Part shown: piece after piece, positions 9,839-34,641 of the stretch
How the letters are laid out: each line of letters starts with the position of its first letter
How positions within the stretch are numbered: position 1 is the first letter of the stretch
Assembly: GCF_001485535.1 (NCBI RefSeq)
Contig: NZ_BCMZ01000001.1
Coordinates: 1,240,001 to 1,304,000, forward strand
Length of the DNA: 64,000 nt
Source of the DNA: Halobacterium sp. CBA1132
GTDB lineage: Archaea > Halobacteriota > Halobacteria > Halobacteriales > Halobacteriaceae
Direction of reading: 5' to 3'
Program-made: the position numbers and the translations under genes
Notes under the pieces: model-generated
Database searches by the model: none
What the model was told of the DNA's origin: nothing
The model's input: the letters and a program-made list of their open reading frames with translations, nothing else

Positions 9839-9871
9839 ACTTATGGCCCTCATAGACAGTAAGTGACTACC

Positions 9872-10627
9872 ATGGACGCCAAACATCCGGTACGGACAAC
9901 GGAGAAAACCCTCGCGTTGGTCGAGGAGCTGATGGACCGAGGGCCCTGTGGCGTCACGGAGTTGACCGAGGGCCTCGACATGGGGAAGAGCGCGGTCCAC
10001 AACCACCTCACGACCCTCCAGAAGCACGGTTACGTCCTCAAGACCGGCGACGAGTACCAACTCGGCCTGAAGTTCCTCGAAGTCGGGGGCTCCACGCGGA
10101 AGTCCATGGAGTTCTATCAGGTGGCCGAGCCGGAGGTGAAGTCGCTGGCCAGCGAGACCGGCGAACTCGCGAATCTCCTCGTCGAGGAACAGGGGATGGG
10201 CGTCTACCTGATGCGGTCGAAGGGTGACGAGGCCGTCGACCTCGACACGTACGCCGGACTCCGGACGCACCTCCACACGACCGCGCTCGGGAAGGCGATT
10301 CTCGCGTACCTCCCGGAGTCCCGCGTCGACGAAATCATCGAGCACCGCGGCCTCGAACAGAAGACACCGCGTAGCGTCGGCAGCCGCGAGGAACTGTTCG
10401 AGGTGCTGGAGGACGTCCGCGACCGCGGGTACGCCGTCGACGACGGCGAACGACTCGAAGGACTGCGCTGTGTCGCCGCGCCGGTCAAGGACTCCTCCGA
10501 CGAGGTGCTGGGCGCGATGAGCGTCTCCGCGCCCGCCAGTCGGGTCAGCGACGACGACCTCCACGGAGAACTCCCCGAGCGAGTGCTCAGTGCCGCGAAC
10601 GTCGTCGAACTCAACATCAACTACTGA
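9872..10627 (+). CDS. IclR family transcriptional regulator
   Basis: A 251-residue regulator with an N-terminal winged helix-turn-helix (about residues 8-65, including [23 protein letters not shown]) and a C-terminal IclR effector-binding domain (about 75-250) with the typical segment [14 protein letters not shown]. IclR proteins bind palindromes as dimers and respond to small carbon compounds; XacR of Haloferax volcanii, the activator of D-xylose and L-arabinose catabolism, is of this family. The ATG at 9872 is taken; a GTG three codons upstream is an alternative. A perfect palindrome precedes its TATA box, and identical palindromes lie beside the GH3 genes 24 kb away, so it probably governs uronate/xylan genes. 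The effector is unknown. Confidence 0.9.
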
Positions 10628-11062: not shown

Positions 11063-12430
11063 CTACAGGCCGTACAGCTCCTTCGGCCGGTCGTAGGCAA
11101 CGTGCTCGACGAGGCGTTCGGCGTTCTCTCGCGGCATCCGGCCGCGCTCGACCATCTCGCCGACGACGTTCGCGAGCGAGCGCCGGAACATCTCGAAGCG
11201 GGAGCCGTAGGAGACGAGCTTCCGGGAGTCGCTGACCATGCCCGCGTGGTTCGCGAGCAAGTCCACTGCCGCCACCCGTTCGAGTTGGTTCTCGATACCG
11301 AGCGGGCTGTCGTTGAACCACCACGCTGGCCCGATGCTCACGTTCGGGTACGCCCGCGCGACGACCGTCGCGCTCGGGTAGTGCGTCGGGTCCAGCGTGT
11401 AGACGACAATCTCCATCTCGCCGTCGAAGCGGTCCAAGAAGTAGTCCAGCCCCTCGACGAGGTCGACGTCCTGCGTCGACACGTCCCCGCCAGCGTTCTT
11501 TCCGAGGTCCTCGTGCAGCGACTCGCGGTAGTCCCGCACCGCGCCGACGTGGAGTTGGGTCGTCCACCCCGCCTCGCTGTTCAACTCGCCGACGAACTCC
11601 AGCAGGAAGGCCCTGTAGTCGCGAATCTCCGCCGCCGAGAGGCTGGCGCCGCGGCGCGCCTTCGCGTACACGTCGCCGGCGTGTTCGACGCTGACCGGCC
11701 GGGAGACGGGACTCGTCCCGACGCCGACGTCGCAGGCGACGCAGCCGTGGTCGGCGAAGTAGTCGTGCGTCTCCGCGAGCGCGTCGAGGAACCCCTCGAA
11801 GTCGTCGACGTCGGCGTCGGTCACCTCGTCGAGTTCGGCGACGAACGTCTCCCACGCCGGGCCCTCGACTTTCAGCGCGCGGTCGGGCCGCCACGTCGGC
11901 CGGACGTCCACGCCCTCGACTTCCGTCTCGGCGCGCTCGTGGAGGCGGAGTTGCGACGTCGGGTCGTCGCTGCTGCACAGCACCTCGACGTTCATGTCCC
12001 GCAGCACCTGCTGTGGGCGCATCTCGTCGTCGGCGAGCTGGCGCTTCGTCTCCGCCCAGATTTCGTCGGCCGTGTCGGCGTTCAGCGGCGCTTCGATGCC
12101 GAACCGACGCCGCAGGTCGAGGTGGACCCAGTCGTAGGTCGGGTTGCCCGCGAAGTCCGGGAACACCGCCGCGAGGGCGTCCCACTTCTCGCGGTTGCTG
12201 GCGTCGCCGGTAATCTTCTCCTCGGGGACGCCGCGCTTGCGCATCAGCTGCCAGACGTAGTGGTCGGTCGCGCCCTCGACTTCCCAGATGTCGTCCCACG
12301 GCTCGTTCTCGACGACCTCCGCGAGGTCGACGTGGTTGTGCGGGTCGACGACCGGCAGGTCGGCAATCGAGTCGTAGAGGTCGACGGCGGCCGCCGAATC
12401 CAGCAGGTAGTCCTCGTCGAGGAAGCTCAT
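11063..12430 (-). CDS. uxaC: glucuronate isomerase
   Basis: Isomerises D-glucuronate to D-fructuronate, or D-galacturonate to D-tagaturonate (EC 5.3.1.12), the first step of the isomerase route of hexuronate breakdown. The 455 residues match the family length of about 460-470. The amidohydrolase-like metal motif DPHNHVD is at residues 29-35. Other family segments are TWRPDRALKVEG, DVYAKARRGASLS, YTLDPTHYPSATVVARAYPNVSIG split across the C-terminal third, and NHAGMVSDSRKLVSYGSRFEMFRR near the end. It is the last gene of the operon SDR-uxuA-uxaC, 45 bases downstream of uxuA. Confidence 0.95.
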   Translation of the reverse strand: MSFLDEDYLLDSAAAVDLYDSIADLPVVDPHNHVDLAEVVENEPWDDIWEVEGATDHYVWQLMRKRGVPEEKITGDASNREKWDALAAVFPDFAGNPTYDWVHLDLRRRFGIEAPLNADTADEIWAETKRQLADDEMRPQQVLRDMNVEVLCSSDDPTSQLRLHERAETEVEGVDVRPTWRPDRALKVEGPAWETFVAELDEVTDADVDDFEGFLDALAETHDYFADHGCVACDVGVGTSPVSRPVSVEHAGDVYAKARRGASLSAAEIRDYRAFLLEFVGELNSEAGWTTQLHVGAVRDYRESLHEDLGKNAGGDVSTQDVDLVEGLDYFLDRFDGEMEIVVYTLDPTHYPSATVVARAYPNVSIGPAWWFNDSPLGIENQLERVAAVDLLANHAGMVSDSRKLVSYGSRFEMFRRSLANVVGEMVERGRMPRENAERLVEHVAYDRPKELYGL

Positions 12431-12475: not shown

Positions 12476-13429
12476 CTACGCGTCGGTCTGCTCCAGCAGC
12501 CCCTTCATGTACCCGACGGCGAACAGCCGACCCATGTCCGTGTAGCCGGCTTGGGCATCGTCGCGGTGACCCTCGTCGAGCATCCGGGGGACGTGGTCGG
12601 GGCGGATCGGCCCGTCGAAGCCCACCTCGCGGTACGCCTCCATCGCCGCGAGCATGTCCGTCGGACCGTCGTCCTGCCACGTCTCCACGAACTCCTCGGG
12701 CGTGCCGTCGACGTCCCGGAAGTGAACGAAGTGGATGCGGTCGCCGAACCGCCGAATCGTCTCGGGGACGTCGGCACCCATCGCCGCGTAGTTGCCCTGA
12801 CAGAACGTCAGCCCGTGGTTCGGGCTGTCGTGGAGGTCGAGGATGCGCTGGACGTTCTCGACGGAGTTGACGAGCCGAGGGACGCCCCGTACGGACTCCG
12901 TGGGAGGGTCGTCGGGGTGGAGCGCGAGTTTCACGCCAGCCTCCTCGGCGACAGGGACGACTTCGTCGAGGAAGTGTTCGAGGTTCTCCCAGAGTTCCGC
13001 CTCGGTGATATCGACGGGATGGTCGGGCGCTTGCTCGGACTGCTCGTGGTCGTAGGCCGTCGTCCGGGAGTCCCCGCGCAGCGGCACCTCGTCGGACGTC
13101 CGGAGCACGCCGACCGGGTTCTCGGTCCACACCCAGCAGTAGACGTCGATGCCGGCCCGCCCCATGTTCCGAACGAGCTGTTTGACCGTCTCGATTTCCT
13201 CGTCGCGGCCCTCGCGGCCGAGGACCGTGTTCGTCATCGGCGGGCGGTCCTCGACGACATCCAGCGAGAGGCCGTGGTCGGCGAATCGGTTTTTGGCGGC
13301 TAGCAGCGAGTCGTACGTCCACCACTCGTCTTCGCCCCAGAAGCGGACGACGGCGGTCGAGAGGCCGAGCTGTCGGGCGAGCGTCCACCGCCGGTCGGGG
13401 TGCGGCGGGAGCATCGTCGTCGTGTCCAT
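12476..13429 (-). CDS. uxuA: mannonate dehydratase
   Basis: Dehydrates D-mannonate to 2-keto-3-deoxy-D-gluconate (EC 4.2.1.8). At 317 residues it is shorter than enteric UxuA (about 390) but of similar size to archaeal and Gram-positive members. Metal ligands expected for this TIM-barrel family are visible: H in ALHPDDPP, C in FCQGNY, H in HFRDVDG, and D/H in RPDHVPRML. A WVWTENP strand lies earlier. It starts at the ATG at 13429, 56 bases after the SDR gene, in the same operon. Its product can enter the semi-phosphorylative Entner-Doudoroff route of haloarchaea. Confidence 0.92.
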   Translation of the reverse strand: MDTTTMLPPHPDRRWTLARQLGLSTAVVRFWGEDEWWTYDSLLAAKNRFADHGLSLDVVEDRPPMTNTVLGREGRDEEIETVKQLVRNMGRAGIDVYCWVWTENPVGVLRTSDEVPLRGDSRTTAYDHEQSEQAPDHPVDITEAELWENLEHFLDEVVPVAEEAGVKLALHPDDPPTESVRGVPRLVNSVENVQRILDLHDSPNHGLTFCQGNYAAMGADVPETIRRFGDRIHFVHFRDVDGTPEEFVETWQDDGPTDMLAAMEAYREVGFDGPIRPDHVPRMLDEGHRDDAQAGYTDMGRLFAVGYMKGLLEQTDA

Positions 13430-13485
13430 ACGTCGCCTCTCGTGGACGCCCACAATAGTAGTTCCGTGTGCCGCGGCCGGGCCCG

Positions 13486-14256
13486 TTACTGCGCGCTGTC
13501 GTCGTAGCCGCCGTCGACGGTGATGACCTCGCCGGTCGTGAAGGAGGCGGCGTCGCTGGCGAGGTAGAGCGCGGCGCCGACCATCTCCTCGGGCGCGGCG
13601 ACGCGACCCATCGGGGTGCGCTCGTCGACGGTCGCGCGGAACTCCGAGCCGTCTTCGAGTTTCGGGCCGGCCATCTCGGTCTTCACGAAGCCGGGGGCGA
13701 TGGCGTTCACGCGGACGTCGGGCGCGAGGTCCGCCGAGAGCGCGCGCGTCAGCCCGTTCACGCCGCTCTTCGCGGCGCAGTAGGCGGCGCGGGCTTCGCG
13801 GGCTTGGTCGGCGGACATCGAGGAGATGTTGACGATGCTCCCCGACTCCATCTCCCGAGCGAACACCTGACACGTCTTGAAGACGCCGGTGAGGTCGACG
13901 TCGATGTCACGCTGCCACTCCTCGTCGGTCATCTCTGTGACTGGTGATTGAGCGACCGTTCCCGCGGAGTTGACGAGAATGTCGACGTCGCCGACGTCCT
14001 CGGTGACAGTGTCCCGCAGCGTTTCCAGGGAGTCGGCGTCGGTCACGTCACACCTCACTTCTGCGGTGGCAGCGCCGCGCTCGCGGAGTTCCTCGGCGAC
14101 GCGCTCGACGGCGTCCGCGGAGCGACTGGTGGCGACGACGTCGGCGCCGTCCTCGGCGAACCCGAGCGCGATGGCGCGACCGATTCCTCTCGTCCCGCCG
14201 ACGACGACAGCGGTCTTTCCCTCGACAGTTACGGACGGCACGCTCTCTGAAGCCAT
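13486..14256 (-). CDS. short-chain dehydrogenase, probable fructuronate reductase
   Basis: A classical 256-residue SDR with the cofactor motif VVVGGTRGIGRAIAL, the NSAG strand, catalytic S in NISSMS and the Y-x-x-x-K pair in YCAAKSG, ending with the family signature ITVDGGYDDSAQ. It is the first gene of an operon with uxuA and uxaC. A reductase making D-mannonate from D-fructuronate is needed between those two enzymes and no UxuB-type long-chain dehydrogenase is present, so this SDR is the likely substitute. That function is inferred from position. A TATA box (TTTATACG on the plus strand, 14281-14288) lies 25-32 bases upstream of the ATG. Confidence 0.8.
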   Translation of the reverse strand: MASESVPSVTVEGKTAVVVGGTRGIGRAIALGFAEDGADVVATSRSADAVERVAEELRERGAATAEVRCDVTDADSLETLRDTVTEDVGDVDILVNSAGTVAQSPVTEMTDEEWQRDIDVDLTGVFKTCQVFAREMESGSIVNISSMSADQAREARAAYCAAKSGVNGLTRALSADLAPDVRVNAIAPGFVKTEMAGPKLEDGSEFRATVDERTPMGRVAAPEEMVGAALYLASDAASFTTGEVITVDGGYDDSAQ

Positions 14257-14484: not shown

Positions 14485-16524
14485 ATGGAAAGAGACAACG
14501 GCAGTTACGACAGTAGGCGGCGTACGTTCCTCAAAGCACTCGGCGCGCTCGGCGCCACGGCGGCAGCGGGCCCCGCCGTCGCCGGACAGACCGCGGCCGC
14601 ACAGGCCGCGAACTACCACGAGTCGCTGCGAGCGGAACTCACAGCATCGAGCAGACAGAACAAGCAACTCCCGGCGGGCGAGTACGTCTACGACGAGAGC
14701 GAGGCCGCGACCATCGAGACGTTCTCGCTGGTCGGCGACGGTACAGCATCGACGGTTAGCGTCGACGCGGACGCCGTCCCGCACACGCAGGCCGAACGAC
14801 TCGACGTCGCGGGCGCCGACGACCCGGCGGCAGTCGCGTATCGAGGACTGATTACCGACCACGACGTCGAGCAGGGCGACCTGCTCCTCGGCGTCGCGTG
14901 GGTGCGAAGCGACGACGACGCGGCGGAGGCGAGCGCGCGATTCGGCTACGTCGACGGTAGCGGCGAACGAGTCGGCGAGAACTTCGTCCAGCGCGGCGCG
15001 CACGTCGACCCGCGGGGCGAGTGGCTCCGGTACTTCTTCCCCGTCGAAGTCGGCGAGCGACCGAGCAGCGCCGACGTGCCCGCGCTGGAACTCCAGGCCG
15101 GGTACGCTGACCAGACGCTCGACGTAGGCGGCGTCGCGCTGTTCGACTACAGCGACGACGACGTCGGCCTCGGCACGCTCCCGCCGTACCACTACGAGGG
15201 GCGCGCCGAGGACGCCGACTGGCGGCAGGCCGCCCACGAGCGCATCGAACAGCACCGCAAGACCGACTTCGACGTCGAAGTGCTGAACCCCGGCGGCCAG
15301 CCGATGGACGGCGCGAGCGTCGACGTCGAGATGGTCGAACACGAGTTCGACTTCGGGAGCGCCGTCTCCGTCGAGCACGTCGTCGGCGACAGCGAGGACG
15401 ACGAAATCTACCGGGAGACGTTCCTGGAGCACTTCAACAAGGCCGTCGTCGAGAACGGTCTCAAGCACCCCGCGTGGGAGGGCACGTGGGACACCGACAA
15501 GGACGACGTGCGGGCGACCCTCGACTGGCTGAACGAGCGCGACGTCCCGACGCGCGGCCACTACCTGCTCTGGGAGGAAGACCAAACCGGTGGCGGCGGC
15601 GGGATGAACGTCGACCCGGACCTGCCCGCCGACGAGAAGCGCGAAGTCATCGCCGAGAAAATCGCCGACCACGCCGCGGAGTTCGAGGGCGACGTCACGG
15701 AATGGGACATGCACAACCACCCCATCTGGCAGAGCAACTACCGTGACGACCCCGACCTCGGCTGGGACGCCATCCACGAGTGGTGGGAGGCCGCCGACGA
15801 GACCACCGACACGGAGCTGTACACCAACGAGATGGGCGCGCTCGGTGGGCAGTGGCAGCGCAGCCAGTACCTCGACTACATCCAGCACCTCGTCGAGAAC
15901 GACTACCCCATCGACGGCATCGGCTTCATGGGCCACCACCAACAGCAGTGGGGGCAGATGCTCGACATCACGGGCGAGAACAGCATGGAGGAGGGCTTCG
16001 ACCAGTTCGCGGCGTTCGACCTCCCGCTGCTGGTCACGGAGTTCGACATCGAAATCCATGACCGCCGGAACGCCCAGGACGTCGGCGTGCAGGTCGACTA
16101 CACGCGTGACTTCCTGACGATGGCGTTCAGCAAGGAATCCGTAGAGGGCGTGCTCTCGTGGGGCTTCTGGGAGGACGACCACTGGCGACCCACGGGCGCC
16201 TACTACGACTCGGACTGGACGCTCCGGGAGAACGGCGAGCAGTTCCTCGAACTCGTCTTCGAGGAGTGGTGGACCGAGGAAACCGGCGAGACGGACGACG
16301 ACGGCGCCTACCCTACACGCGGCTTCAAGGGCGACTACCGAATCACCGCGGAGAAAGGCGCGCTCTCCGGGGAGACGACCGTGTCCGTCGACGACGAAAC
16401 CGAGACTGTCACCGTCGAACTCACGCCGCCCGGGAAGGGCGGCGGGAACGGTCGCGGGAACGGAAACAGCCCCGGAAACGGTAACGGTCCCGGAAACGGC
16501 AACGGCCCGAAGAACGCGCAGTGA
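14485..16524 (+). CDS. secreted GH10-like endo-1,4-beta-xylanase with altered acid/base residue
   Basis: A 679-residue protein exported by the Tat route: RRRTFLKAL at residues 11-19 is followed by an alanine-rich hydrophobic stretch. Residues about 45-230 resemble a beta-sandwich carbohydrate-binding region. Residues about 255-600 form a GH10-like TIM barrel, beginning with the typical 'MDGASVDVEM...FDFGSAV'. The nucleophile is seen in LLVTEFDIE (E519). The acid/base position, normally the glutamate of WDVVNE, reads WDMHNH (H412). Activity may therefore be altered or use another group. The C-terminus is a Gly/Asn/Pro tail with repeated GNGNGP-type units. A TATA-like GATTAAATACTAA lies at 14436-14448. 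It is divergent from the uxu operon. Confidence 0.8.
   Translation: MERDNGSYDSRRRTFLKALGALGATAAAGPAVAGQTAAAQAANYHESLRAELTASSRQNKQLPAGEYVYDESEAATIETFSLVGDGTASTVSVDADAVPHTQAERLDVAGADDPAAVAYRGLITDHDVEQGDLLLGVAWVRSDDDAAEASARFGYVDGSGERVGENFVQRGAHVDPRGEWLRYFFPVEVGERPSSADVPALELQAGYADQTLDVGGVALFDYSDDDVGLGTLPPYHYEGRAEDADWRQAAHERIEQHRKTDFDVEVLNPGGQPMDGASVDVEMVEHEFDFGSAVSVEHVVGDSEDDEIYRETFLEHFNKAVVENGLKHPAWEGTWDTDKDDVRATLDWLNERDVPTRGHYLLWEEDQTGGGGGMNVDPDLPADEKREVIAEKIADHAAEFEGDVTEWDMHNHPIWQSNYRDDPDLGWDAIHEWWEAADETTDTELYTNEMGALGGQWQRSQYLDYIQHLVENDYPIDGIGFMGHHQQQWGQMLDITGENSMEEGFDQFAAFDLPLLVTEFDIEIHDRRNAQDVGVQVDYTRDFLTMAFSKESVEGVLSWGFWEDDHWRPTGAYYDSDWTLRENGEQFLELVFEEWWTEETGETDDDGAYPTRGFKGDYRITAEKGALSGETTVSVDDETETVTVELTPPGKGGGNGRGNGNSPGNGNGPGNGNGPKNAQ
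16432..16521 (+). repeat. Gly/Asn/Pro-rich tail encoded by short imperfect repeats
   Basis: The last 30 codons of the xylanase-like gene are built from imperfect copies of a unit spelling G-N-G-N-(S/G)-P. Such flexible tails can act as linkers or surface-retention segments. No membrane anchor or sorting motif follows it. Confidence 0.6.
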
Positions 16525-17083: not shown

Positions 17084-18526
17084 TCAGTAGTTGTCGTAGA
17101 CGGTTTTCTCGATGGTGTAGAATTCGAGGCCTTCGTCGCCCTGTTCGCGCCACGTCTCCGAGGACGAGCGCTTGAAGCCGCCGAAGGGCACGTGGAGTTC
17201 CAGGCCAGTCGTCTTCTCGTTGACTTTGACGACGCCGGCTTCGGCCTCGTCGACGAACCGATTCGCTTCCGTGTGGTCGTCAGTCACGACGCTCGCAGAG
17301 AGGCCGTATTCGACATCGTTGGCGGCTTCGAGACCTTCCTCGAAGTCGCTGACTTTGATGACGGCGACAACCGGGCCGAAGACCTCTTCCTGAGCGATGC
17401 GCATGTCGTTGTCGACGTCCGTGAACACGGTCGGTTCGACGAAGTAGCCGTCACCGAGGCCGTCGGGCGTATCACCGCCAGCCGCTAGGGTCGCTCCCTC
17501 GTCCCGGGCGATGTCGATGTATTCGAGCGTGGAGTCCAGTTCGCTCTGGCTGACCTGCGGCCCCATTTCGGCTTCGAGACCCGGCCCGATGTCGATGGAT
17601 TCGGCCTCGTCGACGAGCGCGTCGACGAACTCGTCGTAGACGTCCTCGTGGACGATTGCTCGGGAGCACGCCGTACACGACTGTCCGGTAGTGCCGAATC
17701 CGCCGTTCGCAACGATTTCAGCGGCTTCTTCGGGGTCCGCCGAGTCCGCGACGAGCGTGGGGTTCTTCCCGCCCATCTCCGTCTGGACGCGCTTGCCTTG
17801 GTCGGTCGCTTGGTCGTACACCATCTCCCCCACCTGACTACTGCCGGTGAACGAGACGGCGTCGGTGCCCTCGTTCTCGATGAACTCGCTGCCGACGCTG
17901 CTGCCGGGGCCGGTGACGACGTTCAGCACGCCGTCCGGGAGGCCGGCTTCGTCGAGCGCCTCGGCGATAGCGAGAACGACACCGGGCGCGGCGCTGGCGG
18001 GCTTGAGGACGACCGTATTGCCCGCGGCGAGCGCGGGTGCGAGTTTCCACGCCGGAATCGCAATCGGGTAGTTCCACGGCGTGACGAGTGCTGCGACACC
18101 GACCGGCTCCTTGCGCGTGTAGAGTGTGGTGTCGGGGCTGCTGGAGGCTTTCATCGTGCCGCCGAGGTCGGACGCCTTCCCCGCGAAGTAGTGGAAGATG
18201 TCGATGGCTCGCTGTACCTCGCCCGCTGCTTCGGGGCGAGCCTTTCCTTCCTCTTCGACGAGCATCTCCGTGAGTTCGTCCTTGCGGTCGGCGAGGATGC
18301 TGCCGGCCTGTCGGAGGATGCGTCCGCGCTCCGGACCGGGTGTGCTCGCCCACTCGTCCTCGGCAGCGACGGCCGCGTCGACGGCCTCGGTGGCGTCGGC
18401 CGTACTGGACTGCTGGTAGCTCGCGACCGTTTCGCTGGGATTTGCCGGATTCTCGACGTCGAACGTCTCGCCCGTCTCCGAGGAGACCCACTCCCCGTCG
18501 ACGTAGTTCTGGTTGGTCTCGGTCAC
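17084..18526 (-). CDS. xacF: 2-oxoglutarate semialdehyde dehydrogenase
   Basis: Oxidises 2,5-dioxopentanoate (2-oxoglutarate semialdehyde) to 2-oxoglutarate, the last step of oxidative pentose degradation. The 480-residue aldehyde dehydrogenase has the NAD(P) region LVTPWNYPIAIPAWKLAPALAAGN, the FTGSSQVG turn, the general base in QTEMGGKNP and the catalytic cysteine in GQSCTACSRAIV. It closely resembles what I recall of Haloferax XacF, including the C-terminal WREQGDEGLEFYTIEKTVYDNY region. The GTG at 18526 (MTETNQNYVDGEWVSS) gives the family N-terminus; the frame is open further up to 18628, overlapping xacA. It is divergent from xacA across 100 bases. Confidence 0.9.
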   Translation of the reverse strand: MTETNQNYVDGEWVSSETGETFDVENPANPSETVASYQQSSTADATEAVDAAVAAEDEWASTPGPERGRILRQAGSILADRKDELTEMLVEEEGKARPEAAGEVQRAIDIFHYFAGKASDLGGTMKASSSPDTTLYTRKEPVGVAALVTPWNYPIAIPAWKLAPALAAGNTVVLKPASAAPGVVLAIAEALDEAGLPDGVLNVVTGPGSSVGSEFIENEGTDAVSFTGSSQVGEMVYDQATDQGKRVQTEMGGKNPTLVADSADPEEAAEIVANGGFGTTGQSCTACSRAIVHEDVYDEFVDALVDEAESIDIGPGLEAEMGPQVSQSELDSTLEYIDIARDEGATLAAGGDTPDGLGDGYFVEPTVFTDVDNDMRIAQEEVFGPVVAVIKVSDFEEGLEAANDVEYGLSASVVTDDHTEANRFVDEAEAGVVKVNEKTTGLELHVPFGGFKRSSSETWREQGDEGLEFYTIEKTVYDNY

Positions 18527-18626
18527 ACTCGAAACGTCACAACTCACCCATACCATTCTTACGATTCCGGCACTCCCCAGTCCGGCGTCCAGTACACTTT
18601 TGAGGAGCGCCACGAACCCACACACC
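18527..18626. promoter_or_regulatory. divergent promoter region xacF/xacA
   Basis: One hundred bases separate the start codons of xacF and xacA. A TATA-like GTACACTTTTGAG near 18589-18601 serves xacA about 26-38 bases upstream. On the other strand GTAAGAATGGTATGG serves xacF. No copy of the GTTCTG palindrome is present; a direct repeat TCCGGC...TCCGGC is seen near 18572-18592. Confidence 0.5.
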
Positions 18627-19712
18627 ATGTCCGCACCCGACTACCTGCGAAGCGTCCGCAATCGCGACTGGGAGCACCTCGAATCCGGGACGCTGCGCGT
18701 CGCGATGGTGAGCCTCGGCTGGTGGACTCGCGAGCAAGCGATGCCGGCCGTCGACGATTCGGCGTTCTGCGAGACCACCGTCGTCGTCAGCAGCAGCCAC
18801 GAGAAAGCCGAGGAGGTCGCCGAGGAGACGCCGACCGTCGAGGCCGCACTCACCTACGAGGAGTTCGAGGCCGGCGAGGCCACAGACGAGTACGACGCGG
18901 TCTACGTCTGCACGCCGAACGCGCTCCACCTGCCGTACGCGGAAGCCGCCGCCGACCACGGGAAGGCGGTCCTCTGCGAGAAGCCAATCGAGGCGACCCG
19001 CGAGCGCGCCGAGGCGCTCGTCGACGCCACCGAGGATGTCCCGCTGATGGTCGCCTACCGGATGCAGACCGACCCACAGGTCCGCCGGATGCGCGAACTC
19101 GTCGCCGAGGGCGCCATCGGTGACCCCGTGGCCGTCCACGGGAGCATGACCCAGCAGATGCTGGACGTCGTCACCAGCGACACCGACCAGTGGCGCCTCG
19201 ACCCCGACCTCGTCGGGTACGGCGCGACCGTGATGGACCTCGGCATCTATCCCATCAACACCGCGCGGTTCGTCCTCGACGCCGACCCCGTGAGCGTCAC
19301 CGCGCAGATGCACTCCGAGGACGAGGCGTTCCGCGACGTCTCCGACCAGCACGCCGCGTTCACGCTGCAGTTCGACGACGGCACGTACGCCGCGTGTACG
19401 GCCAGCCAGCACGCCGCGCGCTCGGGCCACCTGCGCGTCGTCGGCACCGACGGCGAACTCCGCCTCGAACCGACGTTCCTCGGGGAGTCACCGCAGACGC
19501 TGACGCTCCGCGTCGACGGCAAGGAGATGGAGATAGACGACGGCCGCCGGGACGTGTTCGGTGACGAGATGACCGAGGAGTTCGACTACTTCGCCGACCG
19601 CGTGCTCCGCGAGGAACCGATTCACCCGGACGGCGACCACGCGCTCGTCGACATGCAGGCGCTCGAAGCCGTCTACGAAGCCGCAGAAACCGGCACCACA
19701 GTCTCGCTGTAG
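18627..19712 (+). CDS. xacA: D-xylose 1-dehydrogenase (NADP+)
   Basis: Oxidises D-xylose to xylonolactone/xylonate, starting the oxidative pathway (EC 1.1.1.424). The 361-residue Gfo/Idh/MocA-fold enzyme has an N-terminal Rossmann domain (LRVAMVSLGWWTREQAMPAV), the conserved C-E-K-P motif in VLCEKPIEATRERAE with its catalytic-region lysine, and the C-terminal beta-sheet domain with DLGIYPINTARFVLDADPV. The opening 'RNRDWEHL...GTLRVAMV.LGWWTREQA.PAVDDS.FCETTVVVSSS' pattern matches the Haloferax volcanii xylose dehydrogenase as I remember it. The ATG at 18627 is used. It is convergent with the gene at 19726. Confidence 0.9.
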   Translation: MSAPDYLRSVRNRDWEHLESGTLRVAMVSLGWWTREQAMPAVDDSAFCETTVVVSSSHEKAEEVAEETPTVEAALTYEEFEAGEATDEYDAVYVCTPNALHLPYAEAAADHGKAVLCEKPIEATRERAEALVDATEDVPLMVAYRMQTDPQVRRMRELVAEGAIGDPVAVHGSMTQQMLDVVTSDTDQWRLDPDLVGYGATVMDLGIYPINTARFVLDADPVSVTAQMHSEDEAFRDVSDQHAAFTLQFDDGTYAACTASQHAARSGHLRVVGTDGELRLEPTFLGESPQTLTLRVDGKEMEIDDGRRDVFGDEMTEEFDYFADRVLREEPIHPDGDHALVDMQALEAVYEAAETGTTVSL

Positions 19713-20169: not shown

Positions 20170-22365
20170 CTACTGCTTCACGGCGTCCGGGTCCTCCTCG
20201 GCGCCTTCGAGCGGTTCGCTGTCCCAGTACGCGTGGTCCGGGTCCTCGCGGAAGCACGCCGCCTTGCCGTCGCCGTCGTCGACGTCACGCAGGCTCGGCT
20301 TCTCCTCGCGGCACGCCTCGCGGGCGACCGGACAGCGCGTGTGGAACCGGCACCCCGATGGCGGGTCCACCGGGTCGGGCACGTCGACTTCGCGCAGCGG
20401 CGGCTCGGACTCGTCCATCGCGTCGAGGTCGAGGTTCGGGGTCGCCCACCGCAACACCTCCGTGTAGGGGTGGCGGGGGTCGTGGATGAGCCGCTCCGCC
20501 GACGCGATTTCGACGATCTCCCCGAGGTACATCACCGCGATGCGGCCGTCGCCGTGCTCGGCGAAGTACCGCGCGTTCGAGAGGTCGTGGGAGATGAACA
20601 GGAACGACGTCTCGAACTCCTCCTGCAGTTCGAGCATCAGGTCCATAATCTCGATGCGCAGCGAGACGTCGACCGCGCTGATGGCCTCGTCGGCGAGAAT
20701 CGCCTCCGGGTTCATCAGCAGCGCTCGCGCCAGCGCGACGCGCTGCTTCTCGCCGCCCGAGAGCTGGTGGGGGTACCGGTCGAGGAAGTCGTCGGCCGGG
20801 GACATTCCCACGCGCTCCAGCAGGGAGACCATCCGAGCGCGGCGCTCACTGCGGTCGCTGTTCGGGTGCGTGTGGCGAAGCGCCTCCGAGAGGATGTTGA
20901 CGACGCGCTGGTTCGGGTTGAGCGCGCTGCCCGGGTCTTGGTGGATGATCTGGAGGGCCTGCCGAATCTCCTCGTGGGAGATGTCGCCGTTCCCGCGCTT
21001 GGCCTCCCAGATGTCCTGCCCGCGGAACTCGATGGAGCCGCCGGTCGGCTCCTGCAGGCCGATCATCGTCTTCCCGAGCGTCGTCTTCCCACAGCCGCTC
21101 TCGCCGAGCAGGCAGACGAGGTCCTGTTCCTCGATGTCCAGCGAGACGCCGTCGACGGCGCGCACGGTCCGGGAGTCACCGAGGAACTGCTCGACGACTC
21201 CCTGTTCCTCCTCGAAGTGGACTTCCACGTCGTCCAGCGACAGGAGCGCGTCCTCACCGGTCGCGCGACTCTCTCCGGTGTCGCTCGTGGCTTCGATTCC
21301 CCCGACGTCGGGGCTGTCTTCCCCGAAGTTCAGCGGAATTTCCTCGCGGGCCTCCTCCCAGTGGTGGCACGCCGACCGGTGCTCGTTCCCGTCGTGGGAG
21401 ACCAGCGGCGGGTCGTCGGTGCGACACTCGGAGGTCGCGAGCGGACACCGGGGGTGGAATCGACACCCGTCGGGCACGTTCACCGGTGCCGGTCCCTCGC
21501 CCTCGATGGGCTGCATCTCGGACAGCGGCGCGTCGAGGTTCGGCGTCGCGTTCAACAACTTCCGCGTGTACGGGTGCCCGGAGTTCTGGATGATGTCGTC
21601 TCGCGGGCCGATTTCCGCGAACTGGAACGCGTAGATGATGGCCATGCGGTCGGCCAGCGACGCGACCAGCGGCAGGTCGTGGGTGATGAAGACGATAGAC
21701 AGGTCGTACTCCTCCTGGAGGTTCTCCAGCAGCGAGAGAATCGACCGCTGCATCAGCAAGTCCAGCGCAGCGGTCGGCTCGTCCATCACCAACACCTCGG
21801 GGTCGAGCACCATGCTCAACGCGATGAGTGCGCGCTGCTGCATCCCCCCGGAGAGTTCGTGGGGGTACGCGCCGAGCACGCGGTCGGGTTCGAGGTAGAG
21901 GTTCTCCAGCAGTTCGCGAGCGAACTCCAGTCCCTCCGAGACGCTCTTGTCGTGGGCCTTCAGCGTCTCCTCGAAGTGCGCGCCAATCTTCATCGTCGGG
22001 TTGAACGACGACATCGCGCCCTGGAACACCATCGACACCTCCTCCCAGCGGAACTGTCGGAGTTCCTCGTCGCTCAACTCGAGGATGTCGACAGTCTCCC
22101 CGTCCTCGGGGTGGTAGTGAATCTTCCCGCTGAGCACGCCGGGGTCGGGGATGGCGTCCATGAGCGCGGACGCGAACATCGACTTGCCGCTGCCGCTCTC
22201 ACCGACGATGCCCAACACCTCGTGGCGGTCGATGCTGACGTTCGCGTCGTCGAGCACGTACGTGTGCCCGTCGTTGAACGTGACGTTCGTGTCTTCGACT
22301 TCGATAATCGGGTCGTCGACGCTCTCGTCGGTCGTCGGGTCGCTAAGTGAGTTCTCAGTAGCCAT
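20170..22365 (-). CDS. fused two-domain ABC importer ATPase (DppD-DppF type)
   Basis: Energises the adjacent permease pair. The 731 residues carry two complete ABC ATPases, normally separate proteins: domain 1 (about 20-330) with GESGSGKS, signature LSGGMQQR and Walker B VLVMDEPTAALD; domain 2 (about 375-720) with GESGCGKT, signature LSGGEKQR and Walker B ILADEAISAVD, where the usual Pro after DE is Ala. Each domain ends in the oligopeptide-type cysteine segment (CRFHPRCP and CRFHTRCP). The ATG follows the permease stop codon without any gap. The context of xylan and pentose genes suggests oligosaccharide rather than peptide uptake. Confidence 0.9.
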   Translation of the reverse strand: MATENSLSDPTTDESVDDPIIEVEDTNVTFNDGHTYVLDDANVSIDRHEVLGIVGESGSGKSMFASALMDAIPDPGVLSGKIHYHPEDGETVDILELSDEELRQFRWEEVSMVFQGAMSSFNPTMKIGAHFEETLKAHDKSVSEGLEFARELLENLYLEPDRVLGAYPHELSGGMQQRALIALSMVLDPEVLVMDEPTAALDLLMQRSILSLLENLQEEYDLSIVFITHDLPLVASLADRMAIIYAFQFAEIGPRDDIIQNSGHPYTRKLLNATPNLDAPLSEMQPIEGEGPAPVNVPDGCRFHPRCPLATSECRTDDPPLVSHDGNEHRSACHHWEEAREEIPLNFGEDSPDVGGIEATSDTGESRATGEDALLSLDDVEVHFEEEQGVVEQFLGDSRTVRAVDGVSLDIEEQDLVCLLGESGCGKTTLGKTMIGLQEPTGGSIEFRGQDIWEAKRGNGDISHEEIRQALQIIHQDPGSALNPNQRVVNILSEALRHTHPNSDRSERRARMVSLLERVGMSPADDFLDRYPHQLSGGEKQRVALARALLMNPEAILADEAISAVDVSLRIEIMDLMLELQEEFETSFLFISHDLSNARYFAEHGDGRIAVMYLGEIVEIASAERLIHDPRHPYTEVLRWATPNLDLDAMDESEPPLREVDVPDPVDPPSGCRFHTRCPVAREACREEKPSLRDVDDGDGKAACFREDPDHAYWDSEPLEGAEEDPDAVKQ

Positions 22366-23379
22366 TTACATCAACCCCGTCGAGGAGTCGGTTTCTTCTT
22401 CGACTGACTCGGACTCCCCCGAGAAGCGGGTCCGCACCCGGGGGTTGAAGATGCGGTCCATGCCCTGACTCAACAGGAGGAGGCCGAACGCCAGTCCGAC
22501 GATGGCGGTAATCGGGACGAGTAGCCAGTGAACGGCGTCCATCGTGAACAGGCCACCGCGACTGTACGCGTTGTTCAGTGTGACGCCCCAGTTCTGGCCG
22601 CTGTAGGGGAGCACGCCGATGAAGTACAGCCCGACTGACGCGAAGATGGTGTAGCGGGCCGCCTTCACGAAGTTCACCAGCACGTACGGCATGATGTTCG
22701 GGAGGATGTCCTTGCGGATGATTCGGAACGTGCTCGTCCCCATCGTGCGCGACGCTTCGACGTAGCTGTTCTCGCGAATCGACAGCACCTGCGAACGGAT
22801 GGAGCGGCCGAGGCCGGCCCAGTAGTTGATAGTGAGAATCACGCCGAGCAACAGCGGATTCTCCGGACTGAGCGTGATGGCGAGCACGATGACGAGCGGG
22901 AGTCCCGGAATCGCCATGAAGAAGTCCGAGATAGCCGTGATGACGGCGTCGACACGCCCGCCCTTGTACCCCGAGACGGTGCCGACGACCACAGCGAGGC
23001 TGGTCGCCCAGACGCCGCCGGCAAGCACCATCAGCAAGATGAACGGCGTCGAGTCGATGATGAGCGCCAGCAGGTCGATACCCGACGGCGTCGTTCCGAG
23101 CGGGTACTTCAGCGACTGGAACGGCACGAGGAGCCGCTGCGTGGACTGGTTCGGGACGGCGTCCCGCCAGAGCCCGAACACGTCCACGAGCGCCATGAGG
23201 ACGTAGACGCTCAGGATGGCGGCCCCGACGCGCGTCCGCGTGTCCGACCACGCGACGAGGGCGGGCTCTCGGACCGAGCGCTCGTAGAACTCCGAGAGGC
23301 GGTCGCGGAAATCGACTTCCTCGGTCGACTCGTCGGCTCGCCAGTCGAACTCCTCGGACGCGTCGGCGTCAGTAGGCAT
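22366..23379 (-). CDS. ABC importer permease (DppC/OppC type)
   Basis: A 337-residue inner-membrane permease with about six transmembrane segments and the binding-protein-dependent transport domain; the EAA-like loop is around EASRTMGTSTFRIIRKDILPN. The long hydrophilic N-terminus (about 75 residues before the first helix LSVYVLMALVDVFGLW) is typical of DppC. The ATG at 23379 overlaps the end of the DppB-type gene by 11 bases, so the two are translationally linked. It forms the channel with its neighbour. Confidence 0.92.
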   Translation of the reverse strand: MPTDADASEEFDWRADESTEEVDFRDRLSEFYERSVREPALVAWSDTRTRVGAAILSVYVLMALVDVFGLWRDAVPNQSTQRLLVPFQSLKYPLGTTPSGIDLLALIIDSTPFILLMVLAGGVWATSLAVVVGTVSGYKGGRVDAVITAISDFFMAIPGLPLVIVLAITLSPENPLLLGVILTINYWAGLGRSIRSQVLSIRENSYVEASRTMGTSTFRIIRKDILPNIMPYVLVNFVKAARYTIFASVGLYFIGVLPYSGQNWGVTLNNAYSRGGLFTMDAVHWLLVPITAIVGLAFGLLLLSQGMDRIFNPRVRTRFSGESESVEEETDSSTGLM

Positions 23380-24367
23380 CGGAATCACCTGCGCTGATGC
23401 GTGGGTCGATGAATCCGTACGTCAGGTCCGCGATGAAGACGGCGACGACGAGTGTTACTGTAATCACGAGGAAACACCCCATCATCAGGGGGTAGTCGTT
23501 GGCGTTGACCGCCGCAATCAGGTAGTAGCCGAGGCCGGGGTACGAGAAGATTTGTTCGAGGACGACGGTGCCGCCGAGCCGGAACCCGATCTGCAACAGC
23601 AGGCCCGTGTACATCGGGAGAATCGCGTTCTTCGCGACGTAGCTAGTCGCGATGCGATTGTCCGAGAGGCCACGGAGCCGGGCCACCTCGACGAACTCCT
23701 CGCCGAGCACCTGGATGCTGTTCCCGCGCATGTTGAGCGCCGTCGACCCGATACCGCCGATGGTGAACGCCGCTATCGGGAGTATCGCGTGGTAGAGGAC
23801 GCTCTGGATGTACGCCAGCGAGAATCCGGGTTGGATGCTGCGTGCGGCCGCGTCCCCCGTCGGGAACCAGTTGAGGTGGAACGACAGGAAGAACAGGCCG
23901 ACCACGGCGAAGATGTAGTACGGGACCGACATCAGGAAGATGGACGCGCCGGACGTGATCTTGTCGAACCGCGATCCCTCCCAGTACGCCTGCACGGCGC
24001 CGATGAGTACGCCGATAACGAACATCAGCACCGTCGACGTCACGACGAGGAAGATAGTCCACGGGAGCGCCCGTGCGACTACCGACGCGACCGGTTCGCC
24101 CAGCGATATTGACCGACCGAGGTCGAGTTGGACGACGCCGACCATGTAGTCGAGGTACTGCTGCCATAGCGGTGCGTCCGGTCTGATGTTCTGGAGAATT
24201 TGAATGCGCTCGTTGACCTGTTCGGCCGGAATCCCCCGCTGGAGGAGCTGAATCCGTAGCTGCGTGAACGGACCGCCCGGGAGCAAGCGAATCAACCCGA
24301 ACGTGAGCGTCGCCACTGCGAGGATGGTTGCGGGAATCCTGAGCGTCCGTCTGAGGTAGTAATTCAT
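23369..24367 (-). CDS. ABC importer permease (DppB/OppB type)
   Basis: A 332-residue membrane protein, opening with the DppB-like segment YYLRRTLRIPATILAVATLTFGLIRLLPGGPF. The coupling loop EFVEVARLRGLSDNRIATSYVAKNAILP is the EAA motif contacting the ATPase. It starts 34 bases after the binding-protein gene, in the operon SBP-B-C-DF. Confidence 0.92.
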   Translation of the reverse strand: MNYYLRRTLRIPATILAVATLTFGLIRLLPGGPFTQLRIQLLQRGIPAEQVNERIQILQNIRPDAPLWQQYLDYMVGVVQLDLGRSISLGEPVASVVARALPWTIFLVVTSTVLMFVIGVLIGAVQAYWEGSRFDKITSGASIFLMSVPYYIFAVVGLFFLSFHLNWFPTGDAAARSIQPGFSLAYIQSVLYHAILPIAAFTIGGIGSTALNMRGNSIQVLGEEFVEVARLRGLSDNRIATSYVAKNAILPMYTGLLLQIGFRLGGTVVLEQIFSYPGLGYYLIAAVNANDYPLMMGCFLVITVTLVVAVFIADLTYGFIDPRISAGDSDAY

Positions 24368-24401
24368 GTTGATATATGATGGACAGTGAACCGCCGGCGC
24401 T

Positions 24402-26198
24402 TCAACCTTTGTACTGGAGGTCGCCCTCGTGGGGCCACCAGAACTGCGGCCACTTCACCTTGCGGTTGGGGTTGTCGTCGCCGGCGACCGTCCAGTCGTC
24501 GCTGGTCGTCCACGACTGCTCGTACTTAGAGACGAGCCCGAGGAACGGAAGCTCGATGTGGTTGTGCCAGGCGGCCCGCTGAACGTACTCTCGGGCGTCC
24601 TCGTCGGTGGACTGTCGGGCGATCTGCTCGACTTCGTCCAGCGGCGTAATCGTCATCTCCCCGCCGTCCGGGCCGGGAATCGTCTGCTCGGTCTGCGCGG
24701 GGTCGCGGTAGTTGTGACCGCCGCCGATCTCCGACTCCCAGAGCTGGTAGTACAGCGGGAAGTACGGGAACGACGACCGGGACCCACCGGGCAGCCAGTA
24801 GAGACTCCCCATCGAGAAGTTGCTGTTCGAGTACTGGTTGAACCAGTCGTTGGTCGGCTTCGTGCTGATGGAGAAGTCGAACCCGAACTGGTTGAGCTGG
24901 CTGACGACCGTCTGCGTCATCGTCGTCCAGTCGGTCCAGCCCGCCGGCGAGAAGTAGTCCCCGCCGATGGTGTTGCCGTTCTCGTCCTTCCAGTTGCTGC
25001 CCTGTTTGCTGTAGCCGGCGTCTTGGAGGAGCTGGGTGGCTTCCTCGGTCTGACTGTCGCCGGCGCCGTACGTCTCGAAGTCGCTTTTCATGTCGTCCAG
25101 CCAGTACTCCTGGTCGCGCGGGGCGATCCCACACGGCGTGTCGGTCACGAACTTCGAGCGCGGGCCCGCGTTCTGGACGATTTGCTCCCGGTTGATGACG
25201 TGGGCGACCGCCTGCCGGACCGGCCGCTTGCTGAAGTGCTGGTCGTCGTGGTTGAACACGATGCCGTACCCCCACTTCGCGGGGATGTTCACCTGCTCGA
25301 CGTTGTCCGGGAACTGGTCGACAATCTCGGGGGGACAGAACAGGCTCGGCGCGCCGTCGACCTCCGACCCCGAGATGAGCGCCTGCTGTTGGGCGGTGTT
25401 CCCACCGTAGCTCTCGATGAGGAACTTCTCGAAGTTGATGTTGTCCGCGTTGTAGAACTCGGGGTTGCGTTCGAACTCGAAGGCCTGTCGACCCTTGCTG
25501 ACGAACGACCACGGACCGCTGGCGACCGGGTCCTCCCACGCCCACCGGAGGAACTCGGAGGCGTCCTTGTCGAGCCACTGCTCGTGGGTCTCGGCCTTCG
25601 TGTCCACGAGGAAGTTCGTGAGCTCGAACTTGATGATGCGCGGGTTCGTCGGCCCGGAGAGCACGAGCCGCGCGGTCCGGTCGTCGACGATTTCGTAGCT
25701 GTCGAGGTACCCCCACAGCGAACTGCCGGTCTTCTTCGCTAGCTGCAGTTGGACGTCGAGGTCCTCGGTCGTCCAGTCGTCGCCGTTGTCCCACTTCAGG
25801 TCCTCGCGGAACGTCAGCGTCACCTCCTGGTCGTCTATCGTGAGGTCGCTGAGCGCCCCGAGGACGAACTCGTTGCTGGTGAACGAGTACTTCAGGAACG
25901 GCGCGAACACCGAGCGGCCCGCCGGCCACCGGTAGTTCTGAATCGCGGACGTGTTGAAGTGCAGGTCGTTCGGGTTGCCGGTGTACGCGTTGGTGTACGT
26001 CGCGTCGTACACCGTGTCACCGCTCTCGGTCGTTCCGGAGCCGTCCGAGTTGCCGGAGTCGGTCGGGTCCGAACTCCCACTGTCGCCGCCACTACTGCAT
26101 CCCGCGAGGGCGGCTAAGCCGGACGCCCCCGCGACTGACAGTATTTTTCGACGGCTGACGGTGTGGTCGTATCTGTCGCTTCCATCGTCGGCTGACAT
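24402..26198 (-). CDS. ABC importer substrate-binding lipoprotein, SBP family 5
   Basis: A 598-residue extracellular binding protein. The Tat signal SRRKILSVAGASG is followed by a lipobox ending in LAALAGC, and a Ser/Asp/Gly-rich linker leads to the SBP_bac_5 fold (segments DLTIDDQEVTLTFREDLKWDNG and RPVRQAVAHVINREQIVQ are typical). Family members bind di- and oligopeptides, but several bind cello- or xylo-oligosaccharides. The position, divergent from the GH67 alpha-glucuronidase and amid xac genes, makes glucuronoxylo-oligosaccharides the best guess. It is the first gene of the importer operon. A TATA-like element (AATATTTATGACC on the minus strand) lies about 30 bases upstream. Confidence 0.9.
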   Translation of the reverse strand: MSADDGSDRYDHTVSRRKILSVAGASGLAALAGCSSGGDSGSSDPTDSGNSDGSGTTESGDTVYDATYTNAYTGNPNDLHFNTSAIQNYRWPAGRSVFAPFLKYSFTSNEFVLGALSDLTIDDQEVTLTFREDLKWDNGDDWTTEDLDVQLQLAKKTGSSLWGYLDSYEIVDDRTARLVLSGPTNPRIIKFELTNFLVDTKAETHEQWLDKDASEFLRWAWEDPVASGPWSFVSKGRQAFEFERNPEFYNADNINFEKFLIESYGGNTAQQQALISGSEVDGAPSLFCPPEIVDQFPDNVEQVNIPAKWGYGIVFNHDDQHFSKRPVRQAVAHVINREQIVQNAGPRSKFVTDTPCGIAPRDQEYWLDDMKSDFETYGAGDSQTEEATQLLQDAGYSKQGSNWKDENGNTIGGDYFSPAGWTDWTTMTQTVVSQLNQFGFDFSISTKPTNDWFNQYSNSNFSMGSLYWLPGGSRSSFPYFPLYYQLWESEIGGGHNYRDPAQTEQTIPGPDGGEMTITPLDEVEQIARQSTDEDAREYVQRAAWHNHIELPFLGLVSKYEQSWTTSDDWTVAGDDNPNRKVKWPQFWWPHEGDLQYKG

Positions 26199-26367: not shown

Positions 26368-26395
26368 GACCGGCCCCGACCCTCCGAGCGAGACG

Positions 26396-28465
26396 ATGAA
26401 CGAGTACGACGACTGCTGGCTCCGATACGAACGCGTGGCCGACGACGACCGAAGGGCCGCGTATCGACGCCGGTGCAGCCACGCGTACGTCGCCGAGGAA
26501 TCCCCCGAGTGCAGCGCGGTCCGGGACGAACTCCGTCGCGCACTCCCCTCCCTGCTCGGGCGCGACCCCCACCTCTGGCAGCACCCGCCCGAGACCGCCG
26601 ACGGCTTCCTCGCGGTCGGCACGCCCGACGACATGGCGATGATTGCCGACACCGTCCCCGCCGAGGACATCGAAACGCTCGCGGACGGCGGGTACCTGCT
26701 CCGCTCGGTGACGTACAACGACGCGGACTGTCTCGTCGTCACCGCGCCGACCGACCGCGGACTCGTCTACGGCACCTTCCACCTCCTCCGACTGCTGAGC
26801 GCGCACGAGCCAATCGACGACCTCGACGTCCGCGAGGAGCCAGCCCACGAACACCGCCTGCTGAACCAGTGGGACACGCCGTTCCACCGCTCCGTCGAGC
26901 GCGGGTACGGCGGCGAGTCCATCTTCGACTTCGAGCGCCTGCCGGACCTCCGCGAGCGCTACGAGGACTACGCGCGCCTGCTGGCGTCCGTCGGCGTCAA
27001 CGGCATCGTCCTCAACAACGTCAACACGACGAAGCCGCCCCGGGAGAGCGCGAACGAGGCCTTCGACGCCTTCGAGGGGTGGCAGCTCCTCGAATCCCGG
27101 CGCCTCGAATCGCTCACGGGACTGGCGTCGACGTTCCGCCGGTACGGGATTCAGACGTACCTCTCCGTGAATTTCGCCGCGCCGATGCTCGTCGGTGACC
27201 TCGACACCGCCGACCCCCTTGACGAGGATGTCCGGGAGTGGTGGCGCCGGAAGGCCGACGAAGTGTACGACCTGATTCCGGACTTCGGCGGGTTCCTCGT
27301 CAAAGCCGACTCCGAAGGCCAGCCCGGTCCCTACGACTACGACCGCAACCACGTCGACGGCGCGAACGCGATTGCGCAAGCGCTGGAACCCCACGGCGGG
27401 CGCGTCTGGTGGCGGGCGTTCGTCTACGGCAGCCACGAGGACCGCGCCGTGCAGGCGTACGACACCTTCGAGCCGCTGGACGGCGAGTTCGCGGACAACG
27501 TCACCGTGCAGGTGAAAAACGGCCCCATCGACTTCCAGCCCCGAGAGCCGGCGTCGACGCTGTTCGGTGCGATGCCCGAGACGGACCTCGGTCTCGAACT
27601 CCAGATCACCCAAGAGTACACCGGACAGGGCGTCCACGCGACCTACCACCTCCCGCTGTGGACGGAGGTCTTCGACTTCGACACGCACGCCGACGGCCCC
27701 GGGACGCCCGTGAGCGAGTTGTTCGGCGGGAGCGGCGAGGGCGTGGTCGGCGTCGGGAACGTCGGCGAGGACTACAACTGGACGGGGCACTATCTCGCGC
27801 AGGCGAACCTGTACGCGTTCGGGCGCGCAGCGTGGAACCCCGACGCCGACACGGAGGAAGTGACGCGCGAGTGGGCGCGACAGACGTTCGGCGCCGACGA
27901 CGATGTCGTAGACACCGTCCTCGAAATCCTGCACGACTCGTGGGCGGCCTGCATCGACTACGAGACCGGCGGACTCGGCCTGCTGCACATGATGCACAAC
28001 GGCGAGGAGTACCTCGAAAACCACTACTACCCGTCGCCCGAGGAGTGGCCGGGCTACCACGGTATCACCGAGGACGGCGTCGGCGTCGACCGCACCGAGA
28101 CCGGAAGCGGGTACGCCAGCCAGTACCGCGACCCGGTCGCGGAGCGGTTTGAGTCGGTCGATGACTGCCCCGAGAAGTACCTCCTGTTCTTCCACCACCT
28201 GCCGTGGGACCACGAACTCGACGACGGCACGACCGTCGTCCAGCGCCTCTACGACAACTGCTTCGCGGGCGTCGAAGAAGCCCGGCGCCTGCGCGCGCTG
28301 TGGCGGGACCTCGAAGGCCGAGTAGACGACCGGCGCTTCCGGCACGTCGCCGAGCGCTTCGACGAGCAGGTCGCGCAGGCCGAGCAGTGGCGCGACGTGC
28401 TCACCGAGTATTTCTACGACCACTCGGGCATCCCCGACGAACGGGGCCGCGTCCCCTCCGAGTGA
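26396..28465 (+). CDS. GH67 alpha-glucuronidase
   Basis: Removes (4-O-methyl-)D-glucuronate from the non-reducing-end xylose of xylo-oligosaccharides (EC 3.2.1.139/131). The 689 residues span the whole GH67 architecture: an N-terminal beta-sandwich-type domain, the central barrel and a helical C-terminus. The catalytic segments are unmistakable: KADSEGQPGP with the presumed acid E307, and the two carboxylates D379 in NGPIDFQPREP and E407 in QITQEYTGQ. There is no signal peptide, so it acts inside the cell on imported oligomers. It is divergent from the importer operon. The ATG at 26396 lies about 30 bases after a TATA-like element. Confidence 0.95.
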   Translation: MNEYDDCWLRYERVADDDRRAAYRRRCSHAYVAEESPECSAVRDELRRALPSLLGRDPHLWQHPPETADGFLAVGTPDDMAMIADTVPAEDIETLADGGYLLRSVTYNDADCLVVTAPTDRGLVYGTFHLLRLLSAHEPIDDLDVREEPAHEHRLLNQWDTPFHRSVERGYGGESIFDFERLPDLRERYEDYARLLASVGVNGIVLNNVNTTKPPRESANEAFDAFEGWQLLESRRLESLTGLASTFRRYGIQTYLSVNFAAPMLVGDLDTADPLDEDVREWWRRKADEVYDLIPDFGGFLVKADSEGQPGPYDYDRNHVDGANAIAQALEPHGGRVWWRAFVYGSHEDRAVQAYDTFEPLDGEFADNVTVQVKNGPIDFQPREPASTLFGAMPETDLGLELQITQEYTGQGVHATYHLPLWTEVFDFDTHADGPGTPVSELFGGSGEGVVGVGNVGEDYNWTGHYLAQANLYAFGRAAWNPDADTEEVTREWARQTFGADDDVVDTVLEILHDSWAACIDYETGGLGLLHMMHNGEEYLENHYYPSPEEWPGYHGITEDGVGVDRTETGSGYASQYRDPVAERFESVDDCPEKYLLFFHHLPWDHELDDGTTVVQRLYDNCFAGVEEARRLRALWRDLEGRVDDRRFRHVAERFDEQVAQAEQWRDVLTEYFYDHSGIPDERGRVPSE

Positions 28466-34563: not shown

Positions 34564-34641
34564 CAACGTGGCCGTCGTCGTCCCCGGTATTAATAATTCG
34601 GATGTGCGAACCCGTGACGCACCAGACGAGCGCGGCGAATA

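Follow-up and report, generated by a model that had tools for sequence, protein, structure and literature searches.

The stretch of Halobacterium sp. CBA1132 DNA analyzed here (64,000 nucleotides, referred to as the window) encodes a GH10-fold protein in which the acid/base Glu of canonical GH10 enzymes is replaced by His. We call proteins of this kind H-type and those that retain the Glu E-type. The UxuA, UxaC and SDR genes lie on one side of the H-type gene and a universal stress protein gene on the other. A sequence-only reading had placed the gene in a functional-looking xylan island, a description that the Pfam and NF family matches of the neighboring genes support, and the island is a glucuronoxylan island (Table 1). 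The ABC transporter is complete and likely an oligosaccharide importer, as suggested by its context, which also suggests that the MR/MLE and FAH proteins would serve an oxidative pentose route. The program-made ORF for UxuA (12476-13873, minus strand) is over-long; its probable start lies near 13420 and its Arg-rich extension overlaps the SDR gene. Also near the xylan island is a gene for a tryptophan halogenase family protein (2094-3665, minus strand; PF04820, E = 1.1e-69).

Table 1. Genes of the glucuronoxylan island in the window and features of the H-type protein
Feature	Positions in window	Strand	Basis
IclR-family regulator	9863..10627	+	Pfam
Glucuronate isomerase UxaC	11063..12430	-	NF002794 above cut-off, Pfam
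Mannonate dehydratase UxuA	12476..13420	-	Pfam, NF003027
SDR oxidoreductase, putative fructuronate reductase	13486..14256	-	Family match
H-type GH10-fold protein, 679 aa	14485..16524	+	ORF and translation, Pfam GH10, fold match 7d88 (Z 30.5)
Tat-type signal region, RRRTFLKALGALG	14485..14604	+	Twin Arg, weak TIGR02811 match
N-terminal beta-sandwich, CBM-like, residues 44-233	14614..15183	+	Low-confidence model, fold matches
GH10 (beta/alpha)8 catalytic domain, Pfam range 283-570	15331..16194	+	Pfam and fold match
H412, acid/base position, Glu in canonical GH10	15718..15720	+	Aligned to E182 of 7D88
E449-M450 in place of the Asp-Tyr of canonical NDYN, without the aromatic +1 platform	15829..15834	+	Alignment of 109 rows
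M482, in place of the conserved Gln of the -1 subsite	15928..15930	+	Alignment of 109 rows
E519, catalytic nucleophile position, kept	16039..16041	+	Aligned to E280 of 7D88
2,5-dioxovalerate dehydrogenase, XacF type	17084..18628	-	NF052305 above cut-off
D-xylose 1-dehydrogenase Gfo6	18513..19712	+	NF041392 above cut-off
Oligopeptide-type ABC transporter (two-ATPase protein, two permeases, SBP)	20170..26198	-	Pfam
GH67 alpha-glucuronidase	26393..28465	+	PF07488, PF07477, PF03648
Xylonate dehydratase-like MR/MLE and 2-keto-3-deoxyxylonate dehydratase-like FAH proteins	29819..32137	+	Pfam
Two GH3 glycosidases	32233-34998; 35069-37342	-; +	Pfam

The catalytic domain of the H-type protein matches the Pfam GH10 profile (PF00331) with 97.8 bits (E = 9.4e-28; cut-off 22.1 bits). 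Its closest solved structure is that of the GH10 xylanase XynA, 7D88, which is found by phmmer at 153.6 bits and by a profile of the subfamily at 234 bits. The predicted structure (pLDDT 65.6) can be superposed on 7d88 over 348 residues with an rmsd of 3.5, a Z score of 30.5 and 27% identity, and essentially all of the 50 fold matches listed for it are GH10. The motif WDMHNH spans residues 407-412 and VTEFD residues 517-521; the codon of H412 is CAC. phmmer and a 16-sequence profile agree on both sites: opposite NH412 stand NE in 7D88 and NA in 7D89, and opposite TE519 stand TE and TA, respectively. By its title, 7D89 is the inactivated double mutant E182A/E280A of the 7D88 xylanase, and because its Ala residues align exactly at H412 and E519, both catalytic positions are fixed without any reading of motifs. 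These alignments confirm the earlier claim that WDMHNH, ending in H412, stands where WDVVNE would be expected, numbering included, and also that the nucleophile E519 is kept, this position being Glu in 109 of 109 aligned rows. We looked for a Glu supplied to the acid/base site by another segment; profile and pairwise alignments to 7D88 and 7D89 agree, none aligns there and the possibility is ruled out.

The profile match and the superposition of the (beta/alpha)8 barrel place the protein in family GH10. As for the features of a retaining GH10 xylanase (EC 3.2.1.8), strand 7 ends in the nucleophile Glu as expected (E519), strand 4 ends in H412 in place of the acid/base Glu, and the aromatic +1 platform, the Tyr of NDYN, is lost. 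The residues listed for the -1 subsite (His, Gln, His, Trp, Lys and Asn; PMC4227162, PMC6163442) are kept in H-type proteins save the Gln, which is M482. The protein is GH10 by sequence and fold, but its catalytic pair and +1 platform fall outside what defines a GH10 xylanase, and it should not be annotated as a xylanase ahead of an assay. Annotation pipelines take the acid/base Glu for granted, and the H-type gene carries the name endo-1,4-beta-xylanase in the annotated record that we examined.

Two features precede the barrel. The twin Arg, R12-R13, is conserved in at least 90% of the H-type clade and the protein weakly matches TIGR02811 (TAT target region), so that the Tat export proposed earlier is upheld as a predicted Tat-like signal, RRRTFLKALGALG. 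Residues 44-233 are modeled weakly (pLDDT 54.5), and their fold is matched best by sugar-binding modules (3see, 8.7; CBM15, 8.5; CBM22/GH10 2w5f, 8.2; CBM4-2, 8.1); at a Z of about 8 a common fold means little, and we treat the CBM-like assignment as a fold-level lead. One H-type protein (L041) is without this domain. In the Halosimplex carlsbadense xylan locus two separate ORFs (L034:1-822 and L034:4883-5800, minus strand) match it at about 33%, indicating that the module is also present in other proteins.

To sample the H-type proteins, the Pfam GH10 profile was searched over 391 haloarchaeal genomes and an H-type profile over the class; the latter was also run on the families to which genomes G137, G080 and G383 and the window genome belong, and plasmid matches were added. 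At least 28 distinct H-type genes were recovered from 24 haloarchaeal genomes, all with His at the acid/base position. They form 29 rows, L034 and L152 being one gene, and one row (L087) is partial, from a broken gene. The site could be read in 109 GH10 rows, which formed the comparison set; almost all of them are haloarchaeal, with 7D88 and one Persicobacter protein added. Position 412 is His in 29 of 29 H-type rows and Glu in 80 of 80 others. The His codon is CAC in 18 and CAT in 3 of the subset counted, and the change from Glu (GAG/GAA) requires two base changes. H-type proteins range from 85% down to about 37% identity to the window protein, and 16 of 16 members match PF00331. With 28 distinct genes carrying the His, a one-off mutation or a sequencing or assembly error is ruled out. 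The H-type gene of genome G264 (L098:8955-10877, minus strand; L087) has an in-frame stop at about the W363 position.

Among the bacterial relatives brought in by the plasmid search, the GH10 proteins of Haliscomenobacter and Persicobacter have Glu at the site, and none of those read is H-type. A single scan of genome contigs returned haloarchaeal loci only, and a scan of viral contigs for the H-type motif returned none. Our search of the open-access literature found no report of His at the GH10 acid/base position.

Three further pocket positions change together with the His. Position 482 is Met in 29/29 H-type rows, as against Gln in 78 and Glu in 2 of the 80 E-type rows; position 450 is non-aromatic (M/L/G/A) in 29/29 and aromatic (Y/F/W) in 80/80; and position 449 is Glu in 29/29, whereas the E-type rows have Asp in 73 and Glu in 7. 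In GH10 enzymes the Gln is listed among the -1 residues (PMC4227162, PMC6163442), while the Tyr belongs to the +1 and the following Asn to the +2 subsite (PMC4227162). Next to the acid/base position, P413 is invariant in H-types and occurs in 5/80 others. H410 is present in 28/29 H-types and 1/80 others; it is Ile in L109 and is therefore not essential. N324, K327, H359, W363, N411, N448, H484, E519, W559 and W567 are kept in H-types, rare exceptions aside. By this pattern, which is hard to read as decay, the acid/base and leaving-group half of the site was rebuilt in concert, with the glycone half (-2/-1) and the nucleophile kept. A subfamily that is without the acid/base Glu and is fixed together with three other pocket positions constitutes a natural experiment on the proton-transfer needs of retaining glycosidases, and it may show how the leaving-group side can be re-tooled with the glycone side untouched.

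Between close orthologues the barrel has a dN/dS of about 0.23-0.26, a rough value from a simple method applied to high-GC DNA, and among more distant H-types conservation is higher in the barrel than in the N-terminal domain. The barrel is under purifying selection. That the protein is the product of a decaying pseudogene or of an isolated mutation, as the interrupted G264 copy might suggest, is hardly credible: 28 distinct genes in 24 genomes, the matched neighboring residues and the purifying selection refute it by conservation. The single crippled xylanase that the sequence-only reading had implied is likewise not supported, since the His is fixed in a distinct subfamily with matched changes at 449, 450 and 482, the barrel is under selection and the gene is tied to glucuronoxylan genes, as described below.

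In a careful IQ-TREE analysis from which the trait columns were left out, 27 H-types form one clade with support 100/99. The most distant H-type, a GH10 encoded on a Halocatena marina plasmid (L109:2932-4254; about 37% identity), reads WDVINHP, NEA and FMGH, has the same suite of His, Met, Glu and non-aromatic residue, and falls outside an E-type pair in this tree. A single H-type clade that includes it is not rejected (AU p 0.398); we considered an independent double origin of the suite and do not claim convergence. The suite may have arisen once or twice. The L109 gene has a sulfatase as its neighbor, not uronate genes.

Three kinds of relative can be set against the H-type proteins. XynA 7D88, their nearest solved relative, shares the barrel with a preceding beta-domain and the aligned nucleophile and glycone residues, but reads WDVNNE for the WDMHNH of the H-type, NDYN for its NEMG and VQGH for its FMGH. 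Plant-like E-type haloarchaeal GH10 paralogues (for example L075, L037 and L031; about 27-37% identity) belong to the same architecture class and are exported; unlike the H-type, they have the acid/base Glu, Gln or Glu at 482 and an aromatic residue at 450. Short canonical haloarchaeal GH10 proteins (for example L030) often share a xylan island with the H-type, yet have WDVVNE intact, are about 24% identical and form a separate clade.

Most of the H-type loci also hold genes for glucuronoxylan use. A gene for GH67, GH4, UxaC or UxuA is found within plus/minus 10 kb in 20/27 H-type loci as against 3/27 loci of plant-like E-type paralogues (Fisher 5e-6, a p-value that is too small because loci of related species, counted separately, are non-independent and because the control was split into plant-like E-type and canonical after the pooled result had been seen). 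Against the pooled control of E-type and canonical loci the linkage is weaker (14/20 vs 14/40, p 0.014), because canonical GH10 loci are xylan islands themselves; 10 of 12 have one of these four genes within 10 kb. The linkage recurs across several genera, and 7/27 H-type loci are without a glucuronoxylan gene within 10 kb. At four loci a GH67 gene stands directly upstream of the H-type gene on the same strand, at about 118-207 bp by match coordinates (spans L137:9640-13874, L171:6830-10987, L172:9072-13372 and L173:6759-10989), and the pair is likely an operon, in two families. A plain linkage to xylose oxidation genes was also considered and rejected, as H-type and E-type loci do not differ in this respect. 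A gene for a GDSL-type esterase, perhaps a xylan acetyl esterase, recurs near the H-type gene (L095, L096, L098, L099, L106) in 4/27 loci vs 0/27.

We asked which other xylanases accompany the H-type protein. In the window genome it is the sole GH10, and searches of that genome for GH11, GH43, GH5 and GH30 (PF02055) gave no matches. In a Halobacterium relative (G319) the canonical GH10 (L088:1007-1645) is a pseudogene with an in-frame stop that has lost about 90 internal residues, the acid/base segment included, next to an intact H-type gene. In genome G353 the canonical GH10 and the H-type are both intact. The H-type is the sole intact GH10 in two Halobacterium genomes, which means that there either the His works or the islands begin from pre-cut oligosaccharides. 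A canonical GH10 lies within 10 kb in 11/27 H-type loci, so that depolymerization in these genomes does not have to fall to the H-type.

This frequent companion, together with the loss of the canonical acid/base and Gln and the presence of an export signal and a CBM-like N-terminal domain, would fit a non-catalytic glucuronoxylan-binding protein that uses its cleft for binding only and aids capture or delivery to the ABC importer. We regard such a role as unlikely, because the nucleophile and the whole glycone site save the Gln are kept: most of the -1 residues stay the same, as does the nucleophile, in sequences of only 37-45% identity, and constraint on the barrel exceeds that on the binding module. 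Moreover, the canonical partner is missing from the window genome and has decayed in G319 beside an intact H-type.

The H-type protein looks re-tooled for glucuronic-acid-decorated xylan rather than broken, as far as can be told from sequence. From the sequence, fold, conservation, co-variation and linkage we infer, with confidence that is evenly balanced, an active exported retaining GH10-type enzyme whose substrate would be glucuronoxylan or oligosaccharides derived from it and whose acid/base would be His412. Xylose units would be held in the preserved -2/-1 subsites, a xylosyl-enzyme would form on E519, and His412 would donate and accept the proton in place of Glu. The changes of Gln482 to Met and Asp449 to Glu and the loss of the aromatic +1 residue would then be one joint remodeling of the leaving-group side. 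GH10 enzymes yield products of the UXX type, in which the non-reducing xylose bears the uronate, and this is the only position at which GH67 acts (PMC3879575; also PMC8618192); hence the uronate-bearing xylose occupies +1 in GH10. In the most specific version that we favor, this uronate-bearing xylose would likewise sit at +1, beside the acid/base, where a neutral or cationic His would leave one negative charge fewer next to the uronate and where the platform that stacks a neutral xylose is gone; the product would be what the neighboring GH67 requires. A natural redesign of this scope, in which a clan-A retaining glycosidase exchanged its strand-4 Glu for His, the Gln for Met and gave up the +1 aromatic for a uronate-bearing leaving group so as to supply GH67, seems to us plausible but somewhat short of an even prospect. 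We count against the active-enzyme reading that xylan might be bound less well once the aromatic +1 residue is gone.

A His acting as general acid has precedents. It is known for GH117, where an Asp is its partner and QM/MM supports a His/Asp dyad, and is also named for GH3 and GH156 (PMC11574756). The GH117 3,6-anhydro-L-galactosidase (His302/Asp320) and the NagZ-type GH3 enzymes resemble the H-type in that His replaces the carboxylic general acid (PMC11574756), but they belong to unrelated families, GH117 is inverting, and the Asp partner is demonstrated for GH117 whereas for the H-type there are candidates: H412 might pair with E449 or with the face of strand 4 that carries H410 and D408 and that, by strand parity, should line the barrel interior.

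The enzyme might also be active with H412 shaping the pocket and the proton coming from elsewhere, from E449 or the substrate's own uronate carboxylate, or being dispensable with a good leaving group, as in aryl or acyl xylosides. E449 is invariant in the H-type clade, the linkage to uronate genes is strong and the +1 side is remodeled, all of which such an enzyme would accommodate. However, Glu at 449 is non-specific, being present in 7/80 ordinary E-type sequences, and residue 449 adjoins the canonical +1 residue; we know of no catalytic role for this GH10 position. There is also no apparent neutral reason for an invariant His over Ala, Gln or Asn, and we give this arrangement a minor though appreciable chance.

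Finally, the His might open the xylosyl-enzyme to attack by an anionic nucleophile or a sugar acceptor, a role proposed for it in some GH3 enzymes, making the protein a transglycosylase or phosphorylase. The +1 site is altered, and the title of Macdonald 2015 (cited in PMC6987092, PMC6572805) ties a His acid/base in GH3 to phosphorolysis. We consider this very improbable: the protein is predicted to be exported by the Tat route to where phosphorolysis gives no energetic gain, no sugar-1-phosphate gene was recognized among the neighbors examined, and His-type GH3 enzymes themselves need not be phosphorylases (PMC6987092).
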